Of a DNA stretch of 64,000 nucleotides, positions 38,806 through 40,459 are shown piece by piece. A program made the position numbers and the translations under genes. Below the pieces are notes generated by a model. That model searched no databases and was not told where the DNA came from. It worked only from the letters and a program-made list of their open reading frames with translations. Numbering within the stretch: the stretch's first letter is position 1; each line of letters opens with the position of its first letter. The DNA is from Alistipes sp. (GTDB lineage: Bacteria; Bacteroidota; Bacteroidia; Bacteroidales; Rikenellaceae), in NCBI GenBank assembly GCA_022767745.1, contig JALENN010000006.1:372001-436000 (forward strand), read 5' to 3'.

Positions 38806-38895
38806 CGGCTGGCGCGTGGAGGGCGTGGCGGAGTTGACCGTGACGCGGATTGCGGCCCGTGCGGCCCGAAAAATTTGGATGCGCGGGACATAATG

Positions 38896-39011
38896 CCTAT
38901 CTTTGCCCGCCGAAAACAGTACGAGAGCGTTTTGTAATCCTCATCGGAGGGCGTGAAACAGAGCCGGATAAGATGACTGGGTAAAACCAATCTGACGATC
39001 CGGCCTTTTTT
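38896..39011 (+). promoter_or_regulatory. Promoter and structured leader with terminator upstream of the MATE gene
   Basis: TATCTTTG (38896-38903, exact -7) starts a leader of about 190 bases before the exporter. It holds a small hairpin CCTC-ATCG-GAGG and a complex terminator: GCCGGAT / ATCCGGC enclosing AGAT/ATCT, a GAC bulge and TGG/CCA around a GTAAAA loop, followed by TTTTTT (39006-39011). Termination 90 bases before the coding start indicates attenuation or a riboswitch, or a separate small RNA. It does not match a class that I can name with confidence. Confidence 0.55.
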
Positions 39012-39100
39012 ACGCCCTTTCGTCAGCGGTGGGGCCTGCGCCCGCCGTGCGGTGGGGGAACGCGACGCCGCGAGTACGCACAACTTAAAAACAGGGAGAT

Positions 39101-40459
39101 ATGGAAAGAAATGCAATCGATTTGGGCACGGTGGACGTGCCGAAACTCTTTCGCCGGATGTTCCTTCCTACTTTGTTCGGTATGTTGAGCATCTCGGCCG
39201 TAACGGCCGTCGACGGCATCTTCATCGGCCACGGCGTGGGCAGCGACGGCATTGCCGCCGTCAACCTCTGCGTGCCCGTGATGATGGTCTTCACGGGGCT
39301 GGGGCTGATGATGGGCGTCGGCTGCTCGGTCGTGGCGGCGGTGCACCTGTCGCGCTCGCAGGCGCGGGCGGCGCGCATAAACGTCACGCAGGCGCTGGCC
39401 TTTGTCTCGGCGGTGACGGTGGCCGCCACGACGCTGATCGTCGTCTTCGCGCGGCAGACGGCCCTTGCGATGGGGTCGTCGGAGCGTCTGCTGCCGCTGG
39501 TGGTCGACTACCTGCAGTGGTTCATGCCCTCGATGGTGTTCCAGATGTGGGTGTCGATCTCGCTCTTCATCATACGCCTCGACGGCGCCCCGCGCGTGGC
39601 CATGTGGTGTTCGGTGGTGTCGGCGGCGCTGAACGTCGTGCTCGACTACATATTCATCTTCCCGCTGGGCTGGGGCGTGCGCGGCGCGGCCTTCGCCACG
39701 TCGCTCAGCGTGGCCACGGGCGGCGTGATGGCGCTGGGCTACCTGCTCTTCTTCGCCCGCACGCTGCGACCCGAGAGGGTGAAGCTGAGCGCGAAGAGCA
39801 TGCGCCTTACGGCGCGCAACCTCGGCTACCAGTGCCGCATAGGGTCGTCGACGCTGCTCGGCGAGCTGACGCTGGCGATGCTCATGTACGTGGGCAACGT
39901 CACCTTCATGCGCTACCTGGGCGACGACGGCGTGGGTGCCTTCGGCGTGGCGTGCTACTATACGCCCTTCGTCTTCATGGTGGGCAACGCCATAGCGCAG
40001 TCGGCGCAGCCCATCCTGAGCTACAACTACGGCGTGGGCAACTTCGAGCGCGTGTGGCAGGCCGGCCGCCTGGCCGTGCGCACGGCCGTCGTGTGCGGCG
40101 GCGTGGTGATGCTGGTCTTCATGGCCGTGCCCGACGGGCTGGTGGGTCTCTTCCTCGGGAGCGGGGGCGAGGCGGCGCGCATCGCCATCGACGGCCTGCC
40201 CTACTTCTCGGCGGGATTCATCTTCTTCGTGGTCAACCTGGCCGTCATAGGCTACAACCAGAGCCTCGAACGTATGGCCGTCTCGACGTCGTTCGCGCTG
40301 CTGCGCGGGGCGCTGTTCCTCGTGCCGAGCTTCATGGTGATGCCCCTCGTGGCCGGCACGGCGGGCATATGGATGGCCATGCCCGTGTCGGAGTTCCTCA
40401 CGACGCTCGCCATTGTGGCCTACTACGGCGCACGCCGCATGCGCCGCCGCAGTGCCTGA
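39101..40459 (+). CDS. MATE family efflux transporter
   Basis: The 452-residue inner-membrane protein has the twelve-helix two-repeat layout of MATE exporters, which expel cationic drugs or metabolites using Na+ or H+. The N-terminal part LFRRMFLPTLFGMLSISAVTAVDGIFIGHGVGSDGIAAVNLC contains the family signature around helix 1-2. The second repeat begins near residue 230 (LGYQCRIGSSTLLGELTLAMLMYVGNVTFMRYLG) with QSAQPILSYNYGVGN, typical of the DinF/NorM superfamily. A GGGAG-like element stands six bases before the ATG, unusual for this window. The long structured leader upstream suggests ligand- or stress-dependent expression. Confidence 0.92.
   Translation: MERNAIDLGTVDVPKLFRRMFLPTLFGMLSISAVTAVDGIFIGHGVGSDGIAAVNLCVPVMMVFTGLGLMMGVGCSVVAAVHLSRSQARAARINVTQALAFVSAVTVAATTLIVVFARQTALAMGSSERLLPLVVDYLQWFMPSMVFQMWVSISLFIIRLDGAPRVAMWCSVVSAALNVVLDYIFIFPLGWGVRGAAFATSLSVATGGVMALGYLLFFARTLRPERVKLSAKSMRLTARNLGYQCRIGSSTLLGELTLAMLMYVGNVTFMRYLGDDGVGAFGVACYYTPFVFMVGNAIAQSAQPILSYNYGVGNFERVWQAGRLAVRTAVVCGGVVMLVFMAVPDGLVGLFLGSGGEAARIAIDGLPYFSAGFIFFVVNLAVIGYNQSLERMAVSTSFALLRGALFLVPSFMVMPLVAGTAGIWMAMPVSEFLTTLAIVAYYGARRMRRRSA

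Follow-up and report, generated by a model that had tools for sequence, protein, structure and literature searches.

We found that the MATE exporter gene at 39101 in the 64,000-nucleotide stretch of Alistipes sp. DNA analysed here (the window) is preceded by a structured leader that is very probably a transcription-terminating riboswitch of the guanidine-IV/Gd4v superfamily, most likely an orphan riboswitch of the Gd4v type, here in a Bacteroidales form that carries a second pseudoknot. This assignment comes from the comparison of sequences and predicted folds. The leader is in all likelihood functional, a real element and more than a product of chance. The gene that it would regulate is also matched by NCBIfam MATE models, none of them above cut-off, and the coordinates of all features are collected in Table 1.

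Table 1. Features of the leader and its gene, in window coordinates
Feature	Position	Strand	Details
Bacteroidota-type promoter	38874..38905	+	TTTG 38874-38877, 20-nt spacer, -7 element TATCTTTG 38898-38905
PK2 5' strand, GUUUUG	38929..38934	+	pairs with 38982-38987
Hairpin P1, CCUC-AUCG-GAGG	38939..38950	+	loop AUC 38943-38945 is the PK1 5' strand; invariant in 15/15 genus sequences
Linker stem LS, candidate antiterminator	38950..38965	+	GGC 38950-38952 with GCC 38963-38965
Terminator hairpin P2	38963..39004	+	GCCGGAU 38963-38969 with AUCCGGC 38998-39004; 5' base common to LS
PK1 3' strand, GAU	38972..38974	+	pairs with AUC 38943-38945; extendable to UCAUC/GAUGA; invariant here
D2 hairpin on terminator, UGG-GUAAAA-CCA	38978..38989	+	UAAAAC 38982-38987 is the PK2 3' strand
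U-tract of intrinsic terminator	39005..39011	+	from sequence; T at 6 or more of the 8 positions past the hairpin in 69/79 homologues
MATE family exporter, 452 aa, regulated gene	39101..40459	+	Pfam MatE 1.6e-27

The promoter was called with the -7 consensus TAnnTTTG, the Bacteroidota type that the genome's promoters have; a sigma-70 promoter scan gave nothing useful. TAnnTTTG lies 5' of 43 of the 79 homologous leaders of the same subtype, against 1.8 expected in shuffles, at a median of 20 nt before GTTTTG. The RNA from 38904 to 39020 has a predicted folding energy of -45.4 kcal/mol, compared with a mean of -28.0 for shuffled sequences (z -4.9), and none of 200 shuffles was equally stable. The promoter match, the fold and the homologous leaders confirm the -7 element and structured leader before a MATE gene that had been proposed in a sequence-only reading of this DNA. 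U6 (39006-39011) comes after the terminator hairpin (38963-39004) and ends 89 nt before the ATG. The reading was also right about the terminator, but the 3-base bulge that it placed there belongs to an outer extension (38949-38954/39012-39017). A simple terminator scan with a loop limit of 8 nt missed this terminator, whose apical part is probably too large for that limit. The outer helix itself (GGGCGU 38949-38954 with ACGCCC 39012-39017) wraps the terminator and spans the U-tract, was seen only in the closest relatives (L002, L003 and L041), and could form in the read-through RNA alone.

Fifteen leaders, each directly 5' of a MATE gene, were retrieved from 121 genomes of the genus. About 50 positions are invariant in these 15 sequences, with variation in the linker length and one stem. 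A covariance model (R1) matched 23 of 180 genus genomes at 83 bits or more and, elsewhere in the order, had 11 more matches with E under 1e-9, from other genera and families. When the window was withheld from model building, the resulting model (R2) found one site in it, the leader itself (65 bits, E 2.9e-15); the next-best hit there was the reverse complement of the leader, at 19 bits. We also scanned 84,980 species genomes with the pattern CTCATCGGAGN{6,36}GGATAAGATG and obtained at least 120 stretches, whose hosts, among those listed, were mostly gut Bacteroidales and gut Bacillota. This set was picked by the exact core, so the invariance of those bases within it is by construction, whereas in the genus and order searches it is independent. 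The core, CUCAUCGGAG-linker-GGAUAAGAUG-terminator, is shared by gut Bacillota and by many families of Bacteroidales, and model-based searches without the exact pattern added members of Selenomonadaceae, Veillonellales and Clostridia. Pattern matches in Gordonia, Chloroflexi, Enterobacter, Pantoea and a few others had neither structure nor context and were rejected as chance.

Such very high sequence constancy can reflect protein recognition too, and a regulator that recognises the invariant loops could in principle govern termination. We regard a protein-binding leader as extremely improbable, however: one core stands before unrelated exporters across two phyla, no common neighbouring regulator was noticed, and the architecture is that of a known ligand-binding class.

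The helices of the leader were assessed in 42 diverse sequences. The P1 core CUC/GAG is present in 40 of them, with a gap in the other two. P2 has 37 double-change cells and is 95.2% paired, against 39-52% when the strands are slid; its inner pairing (AAG with CUU) is broken in the window. The linker stem LS, in which the bases after P1 (GGC, GGU and others) generally pair with the 5' base of P2 (GCC, ACC and others), has 29 double-change cells and is 92.5% paired, against 39-51% when slid, although in the window it amounts to just 3 bp. Alignment columns 44-48 are common to both helices. Because P2 and LS use one strand, they are mutually exclusive, as terminator and antiterminator, and this generic feature of transcriptional riboswitches is thus present with both partners covarying.

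The sequence-only reading had staked its proposal of a riboswitch or attenuator for small-molecule export on covariation or conservation in relatives. Both are clearly there, with the invariant positions in the genus and with P2 and LS covarying across phyla, and the covarying helices, the genus invariance and the constant placement before exporters support that proposal. A plain constitutive terminator, or an sRNA that does not switch, would suit the strong intrinsic terminator fold, but it does not fit a covarying alternative helix, and MATE homologues of the same genus that are leaderless need no such element; we find this explanation scarcely credible.

The loop of P1 and the GAU within P2 would form a first pseudoknot, PK1, which shows no variation inside the window's own subtype. 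Elsewhere its partners change together, as judged by eye and not by statistics, to GCU or GCC with GGC (L261-L265, L296) and to UUUU with AAAA (L169). In a leader truncated ahead of the P2 3' strand, UCAUC/GAUGA folds around LS, a predicted fold that would provide what the antiterminated state requires.

A second pseudoknot, PK2, is suggested by the pairing of GUUUUG 5' of P1 with the UAAAAC loop of D2. Exact GTTTTG at a fixed position occurs in 64 of 64 MATE-linked loci with a GGGUAAAAC-type loop and in none of the 44 without it, so that the 108 loci hold no exact discordance; the strand was scored at a fixed position because a looser definition is confounded by the promoter TTTTG. The four remaining mismatches are not exact GTTTTG, and three of them resemble that promoter sequence. 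The state of the D2 loop has changed at least eight times on the MATE tree, and an independent-pairs test allowing one strand mismatch gave five concordant and no discordant pairs, a number too small to be significant by itself. With each of the loop variants UAGAAC, UAAAGC and UGGAAC, pairing with GUUUUG is preserved if G-U pairs are allowed. The PK2 subtype, to which the window belongs, makes up about half of the scanned loci listed, all or nearly all of them in Bacteroidales. Members without PK2 carry other D2 hairpins at the same place, for example CGGGUGCGCCCG, and in several Bacteroidales the -7 element is immediately 5' of P1, which leaves no room for the 5' strand.

From these comparisons PK2 appears to define an undescribed structural subtype in Bacteroidales. 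A bolder reading, which we think unlikely, is that the subtype is a distinct class in the guanidine-IV superfamily, in which PK2 would close a new pocket for a ligand unlike guanidine or that of Gd4v and control MATE efflux in dominant gut genera.

The same segment could also act as an attenuator coupled to translation. A Met-Thr-Gly-stop micro-ORF (38973-38984 in the window) begins at the invariant AUG in GAUAAGAUG, and ribosomes stalled on it by an antibiotic would free the exporter gene; MTG followed by TAA or TAG is found in 78 of the 79 GUUUUG-subtype leaders, and the targets are drug exporters. In the wider family, however, the frame is not conserved: reading from this AUG gives anything from 3 to 100 codons, with unrelated residues. 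One locus (L133) lacks the stop yet keeps the PK2 pairing. The GUUUUG strand and the covarying helices would also be left unexplained. We therefore hold this attenuator to be very improbable, and the micro-ORF is probably incidental to PK1 and PK2.

Returning to the riboswitch reading, the first downstream gene is a MATE exporter in 129 of the 162 distinct loci listed, and a few of the remaining loci are MATE genes missed through a wrong ORF choice. The other first genes encode MFS exporters, a GNAT protein (L169), DUF554 and ABC-F proteins and a cytidylate-kinase-like protein; searches in Dialister/Megasphaera and Selenomonadaceae likewise found the core before MFS, MATE, DUF554 and ABC-F genes. 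The MATE, MFS, GNAT, DUF554 and ABC-F targets are of exporter or detoxification kinds. Within the genus, the leader is found with MATE homologues that share 56-100% identity with that of the window. Those 44-56% identical (L314-L328) are related proteins with the same promoter type, but they have no leader RNA and their -7 element lies close to the ATG. The leader therefore tracks one exporter clade.

Two further gene contexts were observed. Cytidylate-kinase-like genes (PF13189) lie directly 3' of the leader at L140 and L260, with an apparent MATE frame next at L140. In Selenomonadaceae, genes for DUF554 membrane proteins follow the core at L219 and L222 (Pfam check at L219), possibly as a new exporter or a ligand-related gene.

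The sequence-only reading had named no class for the leader. The nearest is now the guanidine-IV/Gd4v superfamily (PMC7736828, PMC9788692), although Rfam searches with covariance models still gave no relevant family at gathering or permissive thresholds. As no Rfam family matches, we assign the leader by described features, not by alignment score, as a likely member or close sister of Gd4v. According to the accessible text of Lenkeit et al. (2022; PMC9788692), Gd4v is a guanidine-IV variant and an orphan riboswitch for which many compounds were tested and none proved to be the ligand, and we found no later report of one in the literature after 2022. The same text describes two hairpins joined by a pseudoknot, the 3' hairpin being the terminator, with an extra D2 hairpin; conserved nucleotides D1, D3 and D4 that differ from guanidine-IV, where D1 is G; gut-enriched hosts in Bacteroidetes and Firmicutes; and genes for PRK07324 transaminases (commonest, over 50%), GNAT and MATE proteins. 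The leader resembles this description in its two hairpins (P1 and P2) with U-tract and PK1 strands, in the D2 hairpin on the terminator, in the mostly gut Bacteroidales and Bacillota hosts among matched records, and in having MATE and GNAT targets. It differs in PK2 (GUUUUG with UAAAAC) and the covarying LS, which are absent from the accessible text, where one pseudoknot is named. As to transaminases, we saw no PRK07324 gene among the 162 loci read, and transaminase-linked Gd4v members sought in Dialister/Megasphaera and Selenomonadaceae were not found there.

The leader would also share with guanidine-IV (mepA/GGAM-1; PMC7736828, PMC11611296) a loop-to-terminator pseudoknot that competes with the terminator, and transcriptional control of MATE and other exporters. 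Guanidine-IV RNAs are commonly 5' of MATE (MepA-like) genes (PMC12186494), and given this general likeness of architecture the leader could be a true guanidine-IV riboswitch that senses guanidine, its ligand there, with the MATE protein exporting it. We judge this improbable. The leader has D2, a feature of every transaminase-linked Gd4v RNA and of no sugE-linked guanidine-IV RNA in the accessible text of PMC9788692; Gd4v RNAs bind guanidine poorly or not at all according to the same text; and Bacteroidetes are not among the guanidine-IV hosts given in the accessible part of Lenkeit 2020. The published association with sugE was not seen either, with no SMR (sugE) gene among the 162 loci with the core. 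Sequences upstream of SMR (sugE) genes in Clostridia were considered as real guanidine-IV leaders and rejected; by eye, the recognisable ones looked like guanidine-I (ykkC) RNAs.

Two divergent forms of the core were noted. In Megasphaera/Veillonellales relatives and some Oscillospiraceae, a nested second aptamer-like unit (CGGAGG ... GGAUAAG-like) in the terminator stem replaces D2 (L243, L244, L245, L246, L248, L296, L144, L124 and L169, also L092, L130 and L158), often with another loop pairing, GCC/GGC or UUUU/AAAA; this would be a tandem switch before MFS, MATE, GNAT and ABC-F genes. A Clostridia sub-branch (L261, L262, L263, L264, L265 and L281) precedes MATE genes and has GCUCGGAGGGC / GGAUAAGGC together with a conserved hairpin in the linker, AUCAUUC...GAAAUGA; it may be guanidine-IV itself or another variant.

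The Gd4v-type riboswitch that we favour would most likely turn transcription ON, so that an amine- or guanidine-like gut metabolite is exported. The candidate switch elements, P2, LS, their common strand and the co-occurring PK2 strands, were drawn from the comparisons made here, as were the exporter targets. RNA polymerase would make P1 first, then the linker and the GGAUAAGAUG strand. We infer that a ligand then binds; in its presence the P1 loop AUC would dock on GAU (PK1), LS would keep hold of the GCC strand and GUUUUG would clamp the D2 loop (PK2). With all three formed, P2 would be unable to close and the MATE gene would be transcribed. In the absence of ligand, P2 would zip and reclaim the GCC and PK1 strands, and transcription would stop at U6. 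This ON polarity is presumed from guanidine-IV, in which a ligand-stabilised PK1-type pairing blocks terminator closure (PMC12186494, PMC11611296). The MATE protein would export either the ligand or a toxic gut compound related to it; the amine- or guanidine-like chemistry of the ligand is suggested by the Gd4v literature.

The finding adds a large and clearly delimited collection of leaders, linked almost exclusively to MATE exporters, in Bacteroides, Parabacteroides, Prevotella, Alistipes and their relatives. Several of the hosts are cultured, and the leaderless MATE homologues can be used as controls. The LS antiterminator and PK2 are two testable structural claims, and the search for the ligand is narrowed to exported gut compounds. 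If PK2 alters specificity, this would be a further example of a single RNA scaffold acquiring new ligands in evolution.
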